Of a DNA stretch of 64,000 bases, positions 40,921 to 48,638 are shown piece after piece; position 1 is the first letter of the stretch; every line of letters begins with the position of its first letter. Source of the DNA: Vulcanimicrobiota bacterium (GTDB taxonomy: Bacteria; Vulcanimicrobiota; Vulcanimicrobiia; Vulcanimicrobiales; Vulcanimicrobiaceae); contig JAFAJV010000032.1 of the NCBI GenBank assembly GCA_019235995.1, positions 1-64,000 on the forward strand. The letters are read 5' to 3'. The notes under the pieces are model-generated. The model saw nothing but the letters and a program-made list of their open reading frames with translations. It was not told the DNA's origin and did no database searches. Both the position numbers and the translations under genes were made by a program.

Positions 40921-43029
40921 TCAAGGAACGGGCGTCGGTGACGGAGGCAGCGTCGGAGATTCCGACGGTGACGGCGCCAGCGTGGGCAACTCGGCCGGCG
41001 GCGTCGCGGCCTCCGACGGCATCGTGGGTTGCGGCATCGCGGGTCCAACGTAGGCGTTCGTGCTCGCGCCCGAAGCGTCGTAGCCGGCGCCGTAGCCGCC
41101 GCACGAAGATTCGGTTCCCTTCAGATAATATTCGGAGCCGCTGCCGCATCCGCTGACCTTGACGACCTCGTCGGAAGGAAACGGGAAGTCGTGCGGCGGC
41201 GTTCCCGCCAGGGCGGCCTTCATGAAGCGCGCCCAGATTCGCGCCGGGACGTTGCCGCCGTAGGACTCGTTCATCGGCGTGTAGTCGTCGTTTCCGAGCC
41301 ACACCGCGGCGACGAGGTCCGGTGTGTAGCCGACGAACCAGGCGTCGCGGAAGCTCGACGTCGTTCCCGTCTTTCCGGCCGCAGGTCGCCCGATGATCGC
41401 GTTGGGATATCCCGTCCCGCGCTTGATGACGTCTTCGAAGATCGACGTCATGATGTACGCCGTGCCCGCGCTGACGACGTCGTTGGCTTGGGGAAAGCGA
41501 TCGTCGAGCACGATGCTCCCGAGCGAATCCTTGACGAGGCGAAACGGCGTCGGATCGACGTGCAGCCCTTGATTCGCCAGCGTCGAGTAGCCGCTGGCCT
41601 GATCGAGCACCGTGATGCCCGACGAACCGAGCGCGAGCGAGAGGTTCGCCTCGAGGGGCGACATCACGCCCATCCTGTGCGCGTAATCGATCACGCGGTC
41701 CAGGCCCACCCGCTCGGCGACCTTCACGGCGACGATGTTGCGCGACATGACCAGCGCCTCGCGCAGCGTTATGGCGCCCATGTAGCTGTCGTCGTCGTCC
41801 ATCGGCGACCACTGCGTGCCGTCGCCCATCGGATAGCTCACGGCCGAGTCGTCGATGGTCGTCGAGGCCGGAATGCCCGAATCGATGGCCGCGGTGTAGT
41901 CGTAGATCTTGAAGGAGGAGCCGGGCTGACGGTGCGCCTGCCACGCGCGGTTGAACTGATTGCGCAGCGAGAATCCGGTGCCGCCGATCATGGCGACGAT
42001 CTCCCCCGTGGACGGACGCAACGCGACCAAAGCGGCCTCGTGCGCTCCAATTCCCTCGGCGATGGCCTGCTCCACGCCCCAGCTGACCGCCTCCTGGCCG
42101 ATGCGTTGAATCCGCGGATCCAGCGTGGTGAAAACCTGAAGGCCGCCCTCGTTCACGGCGCTCTTGCCGAAGAGGCGATCCAGCTGCGCGATCGCATAGG
42201 TCGTAAAGTACGGGTACTTGTACCCCTGCAGGCCCGGAGGTCGCTCCGCGATCAGCCCGAGCGGCGCCGCATACGCCGCCTGAGCCTGCGCGGGCGTGAT
42301 GTAGCCGCTCTCGACCATTCGATCGAGCACGTGGCGCTCGCGGTCGGTCGCGAGCGCGGGGTTCGAAAATGGCGAGTACACCGACGGCGCGGCGACGACG
42401 CCCGCGAGCATGGCGGCTTGCGCGAGCGTCAGCTTGTCGACGCTGCGGCCGAAGTAGGCGTGCGCGGCCGCATCCACGCCGTATGCGCCCGCCCCCAGGT
42501 AGATGATGTTGAGGTACCGCTCGAGGATCTCGTCCTTCGTGTAGTAGCGCTCGATCTCGATCGCGAGCAGCGCCTCCTGCACCTTGCGGGCGATGGAGAC
42601 CTGATCGGTCAGAAACAGGCGCCGCGCCAGCTGCTGCGTGATCGTTGAAGCGCCCTGAAGCTGCTGATGCGTGAGGTCCGCGAACGTTGCGCGGAGGATG
42701 CCGCCGAAGTCGACCCCGTGATGATAGTAGAAATTATGATCCTCGTTGGCGATGAACGCGTCGCGCACGGTCACCGGAATGCGCGAGATCGGCACCCAGA
42801 CCCGGTTCTCTTTGTAAACCGAGGCGAGCAACGACCCGTCACGCGCGTAGATGCGCGTCGTGCTGGCGGGCTGGTAGTCGGCCATGCGGCTGATGTCGGG
42901 GAGGTTGCGCGCGTATGCCGCCACCATCCCCGCGACCGCCCCGATGGCGAACAGCACGCACAGCAGGGCGGCGACGCCGAGCCCGGCCCAGACGCGGGAG
43001 CCGCGCCGGCTTCTACGCTTCCTTGGCAT
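40921..43029 (-). CDS. Bifunctional class A penicillin-binding protein (PBP1A type)
   Basis: 702 aa. One N-terminal membrane segment is followed by a GT51 glycosyltransferase domain (EDHNFYYHHGVDFGGILRA, QGASTITQQLARRLFL) and a transpeptidase domain (PGSSFKIYDY for SxxK, SRN, AGKTGTTSSF for KTG). A Pro/Ser/Thr-rich tail ends the protein. It polymerises and cross-links peptidoglycan. ATG at 43029 (MPRKRR) is chosen over 43050; it overlaps the nusB end by 17 nt. Confidence 0.95.
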   Translation of the reverse strand: MPRKRRSRRGSRVWAGLGVAALLCVLFAIGAVAGMVAAYARNLPDISRMADYQPASTTRIYARDGSLLASVYKENRVWVPISRIPVTVRDAFIANEDHNFYYHHGVDFGGILRATFADLTHQQLQGASTITQQLARRLFLTDQVSIARKVQEALLAIEIERYYTKDEILERYLNIIYLGAGAYGVDAAAHAYFGRSVDKLTLAQAAMLAGVVAAPSVYSPFSNPALATDRERHVLDRMVESGYITPAQAQAAYAAPLGLIAERPPGLQGYKYPYFTTYAIAQLDRLFGKSAVNEGGLQVFTTLDPRIQRIGQEAVSWGVEQAIAEGIGAHEAALVALRPSTGEIVAMIGGTGFSLRNQFNRAWQAHRQPGSSFKIYDYTAAIDSGIPASTTIDDSAVSYPMGDGTQWSPMDDDDSYMGAITLREALVMSRNIVAVKVAERVGLDRVIDYAHRMGVMSPLEANLSLALGSSGITVLDQASGYSTLANQGLHVDPTPFRLVKDSLGSIVLDDRFPQANDVVSAGTAYIMTSIFEDVIKRGTGYPNAIIGRPAAGKTGTTSSFRDAWFVGYTPDLVAAVWLGNDDYTPMNESYGGNVPARIWARFMKAALAGTPPHDFPFPSDEVVKVSGCGSGSEYYLKGTESSCGGYGAGYDASGASTNAYVGPAMPQPTMPSEAATPPAELPTLAPSPSESPTLPPSPTPVP

Positions 43030-43426
43030 CGGTGGCATTGGCGACGGCACTCAGCACGCCGTTGACGAATCGCCCGGAATCTTCCGTGGAGAAGCGTTTG
43101 GCGAGGGCGACCGCCTCGTTGATCGCAACCGCGGTCGGCGTTTCGGGGCGGCAGCGCAGTTCGTATGTAGCCATCTCTAAGAGCAGCCGGTCGATCGTCG
43201 GTAGGCGTTCGATCGCCCATCCCTCCAAGAGCGGGCTAACGATGCGATCCGCTTTGGGGGCGTATTCGAGCGTGCCCAGCGCCAGTTCCTCGACGAACGC
43301 GCGCTGTCCGCCGTCGGCGTTCTCGCCGACGACGTCGCGCAGGGCCGCCGCGGGCTCGCAATCGCCGACAACCACGGAGTAGAGCACCTTCAACGCCTGC
43401 TCGCGCGCCGCGCGCCGCGGCGTCAT
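43013..43426 (-). CDS. nusB: Transcription antitermination factor NusB
   Basis: A 137-aa all-helical protein: REQALKVLYSV at the start, the central DRLLLEMATYEL and the end AINEAVALAKRFSTEDSGRF plus VNGVLSAVA. It acts with NusE in rRNA antitermination. The ATG at 43426 overlaps the accC stop as ATGA. Confidence 0.95.
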   Translation of the reverse strand: MTPRRAAREQALKVLYSVVVGDCEPAAALRDVVGENADGGQRAFVEELALGTLEYAPKADRIVSPLLEGWAIERLPTIDRLLLEMATYELRCRPETPTAVAINEAVALAKRFSTEDSGRFVNGVLSAVANATDAKEA

Positions 43427-44766
43427 CGGGGCGTCGGCTCCTTGAGCAAGAGCTCGATGTCGTAGCGCCCGTCGCGAAACTCGGGGGTCGACAGGATATC
43501 GAGGCAGAGACCGACGGTCGTGCTCACGCCTTCGATCAGCGTCTCGCGCAGCGCGCGCTCCATACGGGCGATTGCGACCTCTCGCGTGTCGCCGAACGCG
43601 ACGACCTTGGCAACCATCGAGTCGTAGTATGGCGGTATCGTGGCACCCGCGTACAGGTGCGTGTCCACGCGAATCCCCGGCCCGCCCGGAAACACGACCT
43701 TCGAGACCATTCCCGCGGCGGGAGCGAAGTGATTCTGCGGGTCTTCCGCATTGATCCGGCACTCGATGGCGTGCCCGCGCGCGGCCAGATCGCGCTGCGC
43801 ATAGCCCAGTGACTCGCCGGCCGCGATGCGAATCTGTTCCTTGACGAGATCGATGTTATAGACCATCTCGGTGACCGGGTGCTCCACCTGGATTCGCGTG
43901 TTCATCTCCATGAAATAGACCTCGTCGCCGGCCACGAGGAACTCGAGCGTCCCGGCATTCGTATATCCCACGTACCTCGAAGCGCGCAATGCCATGTCGT
44001 GAAGAGCGGTTCTTGCGCGGGCGGGTAGATTCGGCGCCGGCGTTTCTTCGATGACCTTCTGGTGCGACGGCTTCTGCACGGAACAGTCGCGCTCGCCGAG
44101 GTGAACCAAGTTGCCGAAGTCGTCGCCGAGGACTTGCACCTCGATGTGCCGCGGCGCAACGATCAGCTTCTCGATATACAGGCGCCCGTCTTTGAAGCTG
44201 GCCTCGGCCTCGGCCGTCGCGCCCGCGTACGCGCGCTGCATCTCCGCGGCGTCACGCACGACGCGCATCCCGCGCCCACCGCCGCCCGCCGTGGCCTTCA
44301 GCAGCACCGGATACCCGATGGACCTCGCCACGGACTGCGCTTCCTCGGGGGAAGCGAGCACGTCGCTTCCCGGCGTCGTCGCGACGCCCGCCTCGGACAC
44401 GACCCGCTTCGCGGTGGCCTTGTCGCCCATCAGGGCGATGACGCTCGGCTTCGGTCCGATGAACGTCAGCCCATGGTCGCTGCAGATCTCGGCGAAGCGC
44501 GCATTTTCGGCAAGAAATCCGTAACCGGGATGGATAGCGTCGCAGCGGGTGATGAGCGCCGTCGAGATGATGTTCGGAATGTTCAGATACGAGCGGCCGG
44601 CCGGGCCGGGCCCCACGCAGAACGCCTCGTCCGCTTGTCGAACGTGCAGCGAATCGCGGTCCGCCTCCGAGAAGATCGCCACGGTCGCGACGCCGAGCTC
44701 TTGACACGCGCGATTGATGCGCAGCGCGATCTCGCCTCGATTGGCGATCAAGACTTTACGAAACAT
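43423..44766 (-). CDS. accC: Biotin carboxylase (acetyl-CoA carboxylase subunit)
   Basis: A 447-aa ATP-grasp enzyme: KVLIANRGEIALRINRACQE, the Gly-rich ATP loop TAGGGGRGMRVV, EMNTRIQVEHPVTEMVY and GHAIECRINAEDP. It carboxylates biotin on a carrier protein for malonyl-CoA synthesis. It follows, by 21 nt, the folK fusion whose carrier-like domain lacks the biotinyl Lys, so its true carrier must be encoded elsewhere. ATG at 44766. Confidence 0.95.
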   Translation of the reverse strand: MFRKVLIANRGEIALRINRACQELGVATVAIFSEADRDSLHVRQADEAFCVGPGPAGRSYLNIPNIISTALITRCDAIHPGYGFLAENARFAEICSDHGLTFIGPKPSVIALMGDKATAKRVVSEAGVATTPGSDVLASPEEAQSVARSIGYPVLLKATAGGGGRGMRVVRDAAEMQRAYAGATAEAEASFKDGRLYIEKLIVAPRHIEVQVLGDDFGNLVHLGERDCSVQKPSHQKVIEETPAPNLPARARTALHDMALRASRYVGYTNAGTLEFLVAGDEVYFMEMNTRIQVEHPVTEMVYNIDLVKEQIRIAAGESLGYAQRDLAARGHAIECRINAEDPQNHFAPAAGMVSKVVFPGGPGIRVDTHLYAGATIPPYYDSMVAKVVAFGDTREVAIARMERALRETLIEGVSTTVGLCLDILSTPEFRDGRYDIELLLKEPTPR

Positions 44767-44787: not shown

Positions 44788-45675
44788 TCACCGGGCGACC
44801 GCGAAGAGCGGCTGTCCGTATTCGACCGCTGTCCCATCGATGGCAGAGATCGATACGAGCCTGCCGCCGCCCATGCTATGCACCGGCGTGCGGATGCCGA
44901 GTGCCTCGATGTATCCCAGCTCTCGATCCCCCTCGAAGGTGTCGCCCTCGGCCGGAGCCGGCCGGCTCGCGTGAAAGATTCCGACGAGATCCGCCTTGAT
45001 CGTGTCGACGCGAGGCGCCGCCGTTTTGGTCGGAGCTCGATCCGCTTCACGCCTCGACGCGATCGGCTCGGCAGCACGGAGGGCCACTTCGATGTCGTCG
45101 TCCGGCCGCGTGATTCGAACGCGCACGGCGTCGCCGTCGGCGAGGAACCGCGCGAGGGCGCGAACGCGCTCCGCGATGGAATCGTTCTCTCGAATCGGCA
45201 TCGCCGAATCGCTTTCGCCCAAAGGCGAGACGGACCTGGCTTCGCTCTCCGGTAACGCGTCGCGCAACGCAGCAAACCGCGCGTCGATTTGCGCCAAGGG
45301 CACCAGCACGAACCCCCGCTCGCGAAGATGCGGGTGCGGCACGCGCAGACTGGTTTCGTCGATGTCCAGCTCGTCGTAGAGCAGCAGATCGAGATCGATG
45401 ACGCGCGGTCCCCACCGCTCGCCGGGCGTGCGCCCGAGCCGCTGCTCCGCGGCCTGCAGTGCTTCGAGCAGATCGCGCGGCGACAGTGCTGTCTGCAGCA
45501 AAGCGACCGCGTTGGCGAACCACGGCTGATCCACTTTACCCCAGGGATCGCTGCGATAGATCGACGATTTCGCCAGCAGCGTTCCCAGTTCGCCGATCGC
45601 CGCGAAGGCGCGCTCGACGTTCGCGACCCGTCTTCCCAAATTGGACCCGATGCCGATGTACGCTCGGTGCACCAT
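44788..45675 (-). CDS. folK: Fusion of FolK (HPPK) with a degenerate biotin-carrier (AccB-like) domain
   Basis: 295 aa in one uninterrupted frame. Residues 1 to about 150 form a complete HPPK, the pyrophosphokinase of folate synthesis: YIGIGSNLGRR, SSIYRSDPWG, RWGPRVIDLDLLLYD, VPHPHLRERGFVLVPLAQI. From about 160 the sequence follows AccB: an N-terminal helical part (SIAERVRALARFLADGDAVR) and the barrel (LVGIFHASRPAP, ELGYIEALGIRTPVHS, AVEYGQPLFAV). The biotin site EAMKM is EALGI, so no lysine can be biotinylated. An internal ATG at 45201 could yield the second domain alone. It sits where accB usually does, before accC. Confidence 0.88.
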   Translation of the reverse strand: MVHRAYIGIGSNLGRRVANVERAFAAIGELGTLLAKSSIYRSDPWGKVDQPWFANAVALLQTALSPRDLLEALQAAEQRLGRTPGERWGPRVIDLDLLLYDELDIDETSLRVPHPHLRERGFVLVPLAQIDARFAALRDALPESEARSVSPLGESDSAMPIRENDSIAERVRALARFLADGDAVRVRITRPDDDIEVALRAAEPIASRREADRAPTKTAAPRVDTIKADLVGIFHASRPAPAEGDTFEGDRELGYIEALGIRTPVHSMGGGRLVSISAIDGTAVEYGQPLFAVAR

Positions 45676-46022
45676 CAGCGCGACCGGCACAGCGTCACAG
45701 AAGGAGTCGCGCCGTCGAGAATGCGGGGCTTCGCGATCGTGACGCGCGCGCGTTGGACGCGCCTCTCCTCGAAGACGGCGTCGAGCAGGTCGGCGGCGAG
45801 GCGCTCGAGCAACGCGTAGGACGTCGTGGCCACGATCTGCACGATTCGCTCGTGCAGCGCCGCGTAGTCCAGCGTTGCGCTCAAGTCGTCGGTTGCCGCC
45901 GCATCCGTCAGATCGAGCTCGGCGGATATCGCGATGTCGAACGGCTGTGCCCGCTCGCGTTCGGCGGCGTCGGCGCCGTGCTTGCCGTACGCACGAATAC
46001 CGTCCAGGCTTATCCGGTCCAT
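45675..46022 (-). CDS. folB: Dihydroneopterin aldolase
   Basis: A 115-aa protein of the folate pathway that makes 6-hydroxymethyl-dihydropterin, the substrate of FolK next door. Motifs: ISLDGIRAYGKHGADAAERE, DLSATLDYAALHERIVQI, and the end VQRARVTIAKPRIL. The ATG at 46022 overlaps the folP end by 13 nt; the stop overlaps the folK ATG by 1 nt (TGATG). Confidence 0.92.
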   Translation of the reverse strand: MDRISLDGIRAYGKHGADAAERERAQPFDIAISAELDLTDAAATDDLSATLDYAALHERIVQIVATTSYALLERLAADLLDAVFEERRVQRARVTIAKPRILDGATPSVTLCRSR

Positions 46023-46861
46023 CCGGCCGGCCTCCAATCCCGAACGACCGCGTCGGCTACGGCGATCGCATCACGCGCGGCAGCCACGTCGTGGACGCGC
46101 ACGATATCGATGCCGGCCCCAACCGCAAGCGCGGTGGTCGCGACGGTACCGTACACGCGCTCGCCGGCCTCGCGCCCGGTGAGCTTGCCGATCGTAGACT
46201 TACGCGACGCCCCGAGCATCGTCGGGAAGCCCAACGCGACGAGCCGGCCCAGCGCTCGCAGCACCACGACGTTCTGATCGGCAGTCTTTCCGAACCCGAT
46301 CCCCGGATCCAAGATGATTCTCTCACGCGCGATCCCCCGCGCCAGCGCGCGGCGGCCGCACTCCTCGAGGTATCGCAGCACCGAGTCCACGACGTCGCCG
46401 TCGTAGGTCGTCCCCCTCTGGTTGTGCATCGCGACCACCGGCATCTCGAGCTCGGCCGCTGCGTCAAGCAGCGCGTCGGACGCGCCCCAGACCGAGTTGA
46501 TCATGTCGGCCCCCGCCGCGCGTGCGGCGCGCGCAACCGCCGGCTTGTACGTGTCGACCGAGATGGGCGCATCGGCGAAGCGTTGCCTTAGCGTCGCGAT
46601 AACGGGAACGATGCGTGCCGTCTCGATGCGTTCTTCCACCGGGCGATGACCCGGCCGCGTCGATTCCCCGCCGACGTCCAAGAGGTCTGCGCCGTCGGCC
46701 CATTGCCTCGCCGCGTATTTCGCCGCGGCGACGGGCTCATCGACGCCGTCGCCGGAGAACGAGTCGGGCGTGACGTTGACGATCGCCATCACATAGGTCC
46801 GCTCGCCCCACCGGATGGGCCGACCGCGCAGCGCTAGGGAACCGCGCTCGGCATGTACCAT
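46010..46861 (-). CDS. folP: Dihydropteroate synthase
   Basis: A 283-aa TIM-barrel enzyme joining pABA to the pterin; the sulfonamide target. Motifs: MAIVNVTPDSFSGDG, DLLDVGGESTRPG, ISVDTYKPAVARAA, LDPGIGFGKTADQN, GASRKSTIGKL. The ATG at 46861 overlaps the folC end by 28 nt and leaves a normal N-terminus. Confidence 0.95.
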   Translation of the reverse strand: MVHAERGSLALRGRPIRWGERTYVMAIVNVTPDSFSGDGVDEPVAAAKYAARQWADGADLLDVGGESTRPGHRPVEERIETARIVPVIATLRQRFADAPISVDTYKPAVARAARAAGADMINSVWGASDALLDAAAELEMPVVAMHNQRGTTYDGDVVDSVLRYLEECGRRALARGIARERIILDPGIGFGKTADQNVVVLRALGRLVALGFPTMLGASRKSTIGKLTGREAGERVYGTVATTALAVGAGIDIVRVHDVAAARDAIAVADAVVRDWRPAGWTG

Positions 46862-48159
46862 TCGCGTAGTCCCGCGACGACGAACGTCGATCCGGTCACG
46901 ACGACGACGTCGTCCAACGCGGCCATCCGCCGGGCGACCGTCAGCGCCTCGGTCGGCTCGGTTATCGCGCGGCCCCAACCGCCGAGCGATTCCGCTATCG
47001 TCGCCAAACGTTGGGGACGGATCGCTCTGCGGCCCCGCGCGGCGAACGACGTGAACGTGAACGTCGACGTGACGGTTCCGAGGATCTCGATGATCCTCCG
47101 CGCGTCCTTGCTCTCCCCGATGGCGACCACGTAGTGAATTCGGCGATTCGGAAACGACTCGCGCAGCGAGGCGACGAGAGACGCGGCTTTCTCCGCGTTG
47201 TGCGCGATATCGAAGACGACCGTCGGGTTCGCCCGGACGAGCTCCATCCGGCCCGGAATCTCCACGTCCGCGAGCGCCCGCGCGATCTCGGCCGCAGCCG
47301 GACGCAGCTCGTCGCCGAGCTGCTCCAGCACGGCGATCGCCGTCGCGACGTTGGTGCGCTGGAACGTGCCGGCGGCCGCCAGGCGAAGGCGGTACGAACC
47401 GCGAGGCGTGACGACCGAGAGCATCTGGCCGCCGCGATCCTCGGGGCGCTCGCGTTCGACGCGCACGACGTCCGAAACGAGCACGATGCGCGCACCGACC
47501 TCGCCCGCGACCCGTTCGATCACCGACCGGGCGGCGGCGGGCACCGGCGCGACGACGAGCGGCACGCCCGGTTTGGCGATTCCCGCCTTCTCGAGCGCGA
47601 TCTCCTCGATCGTGCTCCCAAGCACCTCGGTGTGATCGTAGCCGATCGATGTGATCGCGGCGACGACCGGCAGAATCACGTTGGTGCCGTCGAATCGTCC
47701 GCCGAGCCCGACTTCGATCACCGCAACGTCCACGGCTTCGTCCGCGAAGTATTTGAACGATAATGCAAGCAGCGTCTCGTAGTACGTCGGGCGCCCAAAT
47801 CGCTCCGTGGTGCGCGCGATCGCGGGCAGCATCTCATCGAGCAGCGCCGCAAAGCGCTCCTGCGATACTGGCGCGCCGTCGATGCGGGCGCGCTCGGTCA
47901 TCGCATTGAGGTGCGGCTTCGTATGCAGTCCCGTTCGTCTGCCCGCCACGCGCAGGCAGGCGGCGATCATGGTCGCCGTCGAGCCTTTGCCGCTCGTACC
48001 ACCCACGTGAATCGTAGGATAGGGACGGTGCGGATCGCCGAGCTCGCGCAGGAGCGCGCGCATTCTGTCGAGCTTGTAGGCAGCGCGGCGCGAGACCGTC
48101 TCGTCGATCGTTTCGAGCAGATAGGCCTCCGCATCAGCGTAACTACCGACTCGTCTCAT
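46834..48159 (-). CDS. folC: Folylpolyglutamate/dihydrofolate synthase
   Basis: A 441-aa Mur-ligase-like ATPase: P-loop VGGTSGKGSTATMIAACL, VDVAVIEVGLGGRFDGTNV, YDHTEVLGSTIEEIALEKAG and FDIAHNAEKAASLV. It adds glutamate to folates or pteroate. The ATG at 48159 overlaps the moaB stop as ATGA. With folP, folB and folK it makes a four-gene folate block. Confidence 0.95.
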   Translation of the reverse strand: MRRVGSYADAEAYLLETIDETVSRRAAYKLDRMRALLRELGDPHRPYPTIHVGGTSGKGSTATMIAACLRVAGRRTGLHTKPHLNAMTERARIDGAPVSQERFAALLDEMLPAIARTTERFGRPTYYETLLALSFKYFADEAVDVAVIEVGLGGRFDGTNVILPVVAAITSIGYDHTEVLGSTIEEIALEKAGIAKPGVPLVVAPVPAAARSVIERVAGEVGARIVLVSDVVRVERERPEDRGGQMLSVVTPRGSYRLRLAAAGTFQRTNVATAIAVLEQLGDELRPAAAEIARALADVEIPGRMELVRANPTVVFDIAHNAEKAASLVASLRESFPNRRIHYVVAIGESKDARRIIEILGTVTSTFTFTSFAARGRRAIRPQRLATIAESLGGWGRAITEPTEALTVARRMAALDDVVVVTGSTFVVAGLREWYMPSAVP

Positions 48160-48638
48160 TGGTCCGGCGACCGGTCGGCCAGGAGCTCCAGTGCATGCGG
48201 GAGGACCGGGAGCACGATGTCGAGCGTCTCCGCCACCGCCTTCGGGCTCCCCGGCAGATTGATGACGAGCGTCCGATCGCGGACACCGGCCAGCGCACGG
48301 GAGAGCATCGCCGTGGCGGTGTGCGCCAGCGAGGCGGCGCGAATCGCTTCGGCGATGCCGGGCACCTCGTAATCGAGAACGGCGGCCGTCGCCTGCGGCG
48401 TCCGATCGCGCGGCGAGAGCCCGGTCCCACCGCTCGTCAGCACGAGGTCGGCGGCGTGTGAATCGGCGAGGTCGATGAGATGCGCCTGCAACGAGGCCGG
48501 GTCGTCGGAGATGATGCTCTCGCGCACCACGGTATACGCCGCGCCGAGGCGCTCGCGCATGATCGGCACGCACTGGTCGGCACGCTCTCCGGACGCGGCG
48601 CGGTCCGAGAGCACGATCAGCGCAACCTTAAACGTCAT
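48156..48638 (-). CDS. moaB: Molybdopterin adenylyltransferase-type protein (MoaB/Mog)
   Basis: 160 aa. LVLTSGGTGLSPRDRTPQAT is the MoaB/MogA signature, and GSPKAVAETLDIVLP is the conserved C-terminal helix. It adenylates molybdopterin before Mo insertion. ATG at 48638 is chosen; a GTG at 48644 is possible. The start overlaps the moaC tail, inside a dispersed repeat. Confidence 0.92.
   Translation of the reverse strand: MTFKVALIVLSDRAASGERADQCVPIMRERLGAAYTVVRESIISDDPASLQAHLIDLADSHAADLVLTSGGTGLSPRDRTPQATAAVLDYEVPGIAEAIRAASLAHTATAMLSRALAGVRDRTLVINLPGSPKAVAETLDIVLPVLPHALELLADRSPDQ

Follow-up and report, generated by a model that had tools for sequence, protein, structure and literature searches.

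A lysine-less AccB paralogue beside accC in a Vulcanimicrobiota bacterium and its relatives, in some fused to FolK

Results

The window, i.e., the whole 64-kb stretch of DNA analyzed here, contains a run of genes in the order folC-like, folP-like, folB-like, folK::accB-like, accC, and nusB-like, followed by a gene for a penicillin-binding protein (all named by eye except folK and accC). The folC-like reading was found within 46834-48573, further upstream of the folP-like gene (46010..46978, minus strand), and the folB-like gene (45675..46037, minus strand) overlaps the start of folK; these three were named from their translations, as was the nusB-like gene after accC (43013..43426, minus strand, start approximate). 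The folK::accB-like fused ORF (44788..45675, minus strand) encodes 295 aa counted from the ATG at 45675, with a GTG at 45690 as the other candidate start, and ends with a stop at 44788. After a gap of 21 nt, the ATG at 44766 opens accC, encoding biotin carboxylase (43423..44766, minus strand; NCBIfam accC, 647.9 bits, cut-off 626.5), which a search of its own genome identified as the single standalone accC above the cut-off. The initial annotation described a single frame comprising a complete HPPK and a full-length AccB-like region, lying in the accB position 21 nt ahead of accC. Pfam, NCBIfam, and profile alignment confirmed the composition of the frame, and its placement is supported both by the coordinates and by the finding that accC is the next gene in every locus of the order that was read, usually at a gap of -11 to +27 nt.

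The N-terminal part of the fusion is a complete HPPK (FolK) domain (45283..45663, minus strand; TIGR01498) with catalytic-type residues retained, matching Pfam PF01288 at 3.6e-38 and NCBIfam folK at 137.5 bits against a cut-off of 54.1. Alignment to solved HPPKs located the GR, GPR, DLD, and VPH motifs, so that the substrate- and metal-binding motifs of the family (TIGR01498) are all present; what sets this protein apart from other FolK proteins is the C-terminal AccB-like fusion, seen in one genus plus six genomes outside it. A second FolK-type domain was also observed in G000 and in the majority of genomes of the order, in relatives usually within an open frame of ~500 aa.

The C-terminal part has the architecture of a full-length BCCP and no biotinylation site

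Profile and profile-profile matches assign the remainder of the frame (44791..45201, minus strand) to the AccB family. The BCCP model (TIGR00531) matches this part weakly (1.6e-4), and its 22-25 bits fall below the curated cut-off of 115.2, a weak criterion alone given that many true AccB proteins of the group also score below it. With a profile built from 13 relatives, the top PDB match was full-length E. coli BCCP (4hr7), in an alignment that spans the N-terminal segment as well as the barrel. Profile-profile comparison with the Eremiobacterota AccB family (31 canonical AccB) aligned 130 columns at a probability of 99 and placed Gly102 of the AccB-like domain opposite the lysine column of AccB. 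In the same comparison, the segment ahead of the lysine site lacks about five residues relative to that of AccB, suggesting that the partner contacts of the AccB-like protein may differ from those of AccB.

The AlphaFold2 model of the AccB-like domain consists of an N-terminal helix (residues 9-22; 45136..45177, minus strand), whose homologue in E. coli BCCP is the N-terminal segment, a beta-hairpin (residues 27-40; 45082..45123, minus strand), a disordered linker, and a biotinyl-type barrel lacking the biotin site (residues 65-136; 44794..45009, minus strand). The barrel was modeled with pLDDT 89-98, in line with the earlier proposal that this domain can still fold as a biotinyl barrel. A model of the whole fused protein, derived from six sequences, reached a mean pLDDT of 45 and was not used. 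The best PDB fold match of the barrel is the Arabidopsis BCCP1 domain 9a87, followed by E. coli BCCP and other biotinyl domains. As the initial annotation had read, the barrel carries EALGI in place of EAMKM/EAMKL (44893..44907, minus strand; sequence and alignment of homologues), and in the model Gly102 occupies the turn between two strands from which the biotinylated lysine usually projects. The domain thus combines the helix-hairpin and barrel of BCCP over its full length with the absence of the biotinylated Lys found in E-[AV]-M-K-[LM] of functional carriers. It resembles bacterial AccB/BCCP (TIGR00531) in having helix and hairpin, linker, and barrel in the same order and in being encoded before accC, but differs in the Gly for Lys substitution (throughout the order), the shorter pre-site segment, and scores far below the cut-off. 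Judged from its sequence, the C-terminal part is a non-biotinylated AccB paralogue of full-length architecture.

A separate canonical AccB that retains the lysine had been predicted to exist elsewhere in the genome, and one was indeed found: a protein of 148 aa with EAMKL, whose gene is flanked by hisS and a gmhA-like gene. The same genome encodes AccD once above the cut-off and has a single biotin ligase gene, on another contig. A motif-less BCCP paralogue and a normal BCCP therefore coexist in the same organism, as is characteristic of BADC-type proteins.

Loss of the lysine is invariant across the order and the barrel is under purifying selection

The organism is a member of Candidatus Eremiobacterota, to which most named relatives belong as well. 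A match to the AccB-like protein was present in 99/103 genomes of the order; in two that gave no good match (G019 and G031), the contigs stop at folK, short of the AccB-like gene. We read 93 loci of the order, in one of which (G012) the frame is broken at the fusion junction, leaving its site unread. In all 92 remaining homologues, Gly occupies the lysine position within an invariant E-x-L-G, the Met preceding the lysine is replaced by Leu, and lysine itself occurs in none. By comparison, E-[AV]-M-K is present in 32/32 canonical AccB proteins of the group. Because glycine is carried by 92/92 readable homologues of the order, an assembly error, chance, or a point loss of the lysine can be ruled out. 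Among pairs within the genus, median dN/dS was 0.18 for the barrel, 0.29 for HPPK, 0.44 for the N-terminal helix and hairpin, and 0.83 for the linker; strong purifying selection acts on the barrel.

A tree of 125 rows groups the AccB-like proteins of the Eremiobacterota class into a single clade (SH-aLRT 89), separate from the AccB encoded in these genomes; the class branch is the supported part of this tree, and deeper forks and a single origin are not resolvable from it. In a sister family of the same class (f3), the gene also lies beside accC, and its site reads EALK in 8/14 and EALR in 6/14. With Lys retained in 8/14, the loss of biotinylation in this family is not certain. Two species of one f3 genus differ at the former biotin site, with Lys in G120 (L237) and Arg in G121 (L235), a difference that fits loss of biotinylation without proving it. 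In remoter members of the phylum, the site is occupied by N, G, R, or in one case K, and the gene again lies beside accC. Two taxonomic labels deserve mention. The sequence of G133, one of these remoter members, is identical to that of a contig titled Armatimonadetes (L104), indicating that the phylum of the classification tool and the names given by submitters do not correspond one-to-one, and a contig titled Rhodospirillales (L097) that contains an Eremiobacterota-type gene with accC is probably a mislabelled MAG.

Fusion to folK is restricted and retains an internal start element

A check of related genomes for the same fusion found it across the genus, in 15/16 readable loci, with the exception of G012 (L017), and in one genome from each of six other genera (g4, g16, g18, g23, g25, and g34). 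In G012, the folK frame ends just past the conserved ATG, which could reflect either a real break or an assembly indel. In g34, the sister species of the fused genome is unfused. The majority of homologues are unfused and encode free AccB-like proteins of about 130-150 aa; a separate folK lies upstream in 34 loci, while folK is absent from the ~1.5 kb examined upstream in 37/93 loci of the order. The functional unit therefore appears to be the AccB-like protein with AccC, since adjacency to accC is universal and adjacency to folK is not. We regard the folK fusion as a side event and a minor part of the finding, with the intact fused frame in 15/16 loci of the genus hinting that the fused form may matter too.

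The ATG at 45201, which the initial annotation had singled out for independent translation, is real and has a conserved counterpart in relatives. When unfused genera were aligned on the start of the AccB-like gene, two shared blocks became apparent, one G-rich near -36 and the other, GCGAA, near -17, and a two-block model was trained on these unfused genera only. In the window, this model identified AGGTCCG (45231..45237, minus strand) and, 10 nt ahead of the ATG, GCGAAAG (45212..45218, minus strand), i.e., the element AGGTCCG N12 GCGAAAG at 45212-45237, which is common to unfused relatives. The ATG itself (45199..45201, minus strand), which fused and unfused relatives have at the corresponding position, is the probable start of a free AccB-like protein of 137 aa. 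The junction site is the top hit of the model over the whole minus strand of the 64-kb window, and among fused genes it ranked first in 11/19 and within the top six in 17/19 (of up to 1375 positions), ranks that are not independent, as the fused genes are mutually related. The two exceptions are a site interrupted by N and a genome where another ATG is probably meant. Fused genes of the genus retain the junction ATG; G008 and G061, two genomes of other genera that also have the fusion, show only GTG or TTG there. Because the bases concerned are non-coding in unfused genomes, the sharing of the element is not due to protein constraint. The element resembles a translation signal or, alternatively, a promoter whose leader would be very short, and a scan of the 64-kb window indicated no clear regulon, with other high-scoring sites not located before genes at that spacing, barring possible chance cases. 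These results imply that the free AccB-like protein is probably also made from fused genes.

Lysine-less AccB-like proteins occur in other bacterial groups

Lysine-less AccB-like proteins were also detected in Ktedonobacteria (Dictyobacter and Ktedonosporobacter; L103, L105, L111, L124, and L127), and a separate EAMKV AccB was present in 5/5 Ktedonobacteria genomes tested. In L105, the lysine-less gene lies between efp-like and xseA-like genes, a neighborhood that we take to be the ancestral surroundings of accB. On Armatimonadota contigs, the lysine-less protein is encoded ahead of accC and a nusB-like gene. In two of these (L106, 4219-4593; L110, 4258-4698), a pilin-like gene with a prepilin N-terminus was seen between the lysine-less AccB-like gene and accC. 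The proteins from Ktedonobacteria and Armatimonadota thus share with those described above the absence of lysine at the site and an accB-type gene neighborhood, but they differ in their site residues (N, R, G, and others), and the Ktedonobacteria gene lies by an efp-like gene rather than accC.

Discussion

Based on the data presented above, we consider it probable that the AccB-like protein is a non-catalytic subunit of acetyl-CoA carboxylase (ACC), BADC-like in its working, that now occupies the ancestral place of accB. Plant BADC proteins are BCCP-like, are not biotinylated, and bind both BCCP and BC (PMC11926652). The protein described here is likewise a motif-less BCCP paralogue coexisting with a normal BCCP, with its association with BC indicated by gene order where that of the plant proteins was established by biochemistry. 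In contrast to the plant proteins, it is bacterial, encoded beside accC, and at times fused to FolK, and the likeness drawn here is one of traits. A second point of comparison is the Chloroflexus BCCP, whose hairpin bridges dimers of biotin carboxylase to form a tetramer of higher activity, with no need for the biotin core (PMC11077971). As in BC1 of Chloroflexus aurantiacus (PMC11077971), an N-terminal beta-hairpin is predicted here, followed by a flexible linker and a barrel, and we infer that the two hairpins are equivalent; in Chloroflexus, however, BCCP is fused to BC and biotinylated, while the AccB-like protein is separate from BC and lacks the lysine.

In the mechanism we envision, the AccB-like paralogue holds the accB position next to accC, with the gene for the true carrier AccB lying elsewhere. 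The retained N-terminal helix, beta-hairpin, and barrel would join the AccB-like protein to the AccC/AccB part of ACC, and this same combination, without the lysine, could fill the BC interface while carrying no carboxyl groups. Binding to AccC and AccB is thus what these features predict, and the AccB-like protein would in this manner set the assembly or activity of ACC, as an activator or as an inhibitor. In this genus, folK would have lost its stop and so become fused to the AccB-like gene, and the retained internal start signal would probably yield the free protein alongside AccC.

The initial annotation proposed a regulatory decoy that binds AccC or biotin ligase. Of the roles to be inferred, one with AccC is the best founded, since accC directly follows the gene in every genome of the order read, while nothing links the gene to biotin ligase. 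The term decoy is also too narrow, as plant BADCs, the nearest described proteins, were initially reported as inhibitors and have since been read as factors of assembly (PMC11926652). If the barrel were bound by the ligase as a non-biotinylatable decoy that tunes the use of biotin, retention of the barrel fold and of AccB-like surroundings at the site would be expected, and both are seen. That the ligase gene lies on another contig, that the conserved neighbor is accC, that Leu replaces the Met ahead of the lysine in all 92 homologues, and that the helix and hairpin outside the barrel are retained nevertheless make this explanation improbable. A coupling of folate and fatty-acid synthesis, in which the AccB-like domain would tether HPPK to AccC, was also part of the original proposal and draws some support from the intact HPPK motifs and from the fusion frame in 15/16 loci of the genus and six genomes of other genera. 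It was not borne out and appears unlikely, since most homologues are free, 37/93 loci lack folK within ~1.5 kb, and the start element is retained inside the fusion; moreover, adjacency of folK is common, making loss of a stop codon a simple route to fusion.

A partnership of the AccB-like protein and AccC in a carboxylase other than ACC might be suspected from the location of canonical AccB away from accC and from two further biotin-carboxylase-carrier fusions in the genome. Since only a single standalone AccC scores above the accC cut-off, ACC must depend on this AccC, and AccD is present once above its cut-off, leaving this explanation highly improbable. As for a decaying, functionless remnant of accB, the missing catalytic lysine and weak family scores would be as expected, but the constancy of E-x-L-G in 92/92 homologues, the dN/dS of 0.18 for the barrel, and the presence of the gene in nearly all genomes of the order lead us to reject it.

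In the literature searched, which left most subscription journals outside, we found no report of a bacterial lysine-less BCCP-like protein, and BADC subunits have been termed unique to plants (PMC11926652). We tentatively suggest, at slightly less than even confidence, that several deep bacterial lineages, Eremiobacterota, Armatimonadota, and Ktedonobacteria, run ACC with a non-biotinylated BCCP paralogue that took over the ancestral accB locus, that the BADC-type subunit, rather than having been invented in plants, belongs to heteromeric ACC as an older or recurrently evolved component, and that one genus makes free and FolK-fused forms from overlapping start signals. For annotation, the locus illustrates that automatic naming at the accB position can label a protein unable to carry biotin. 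Whether BADC acts as an inhibitor or an assembler of ACC has been argued both ways, and a bacterial counterpart beside accC, with a similar protein in cultured Ktedonobacteria, would offer a simpler system in which to settle the action of this subunit. For the organisms themselves, a little-known group of soil bacteria, the finding means that fatty-acid synthesis probably involves an additional, non-catalytic subunit of a type described until now in plants.
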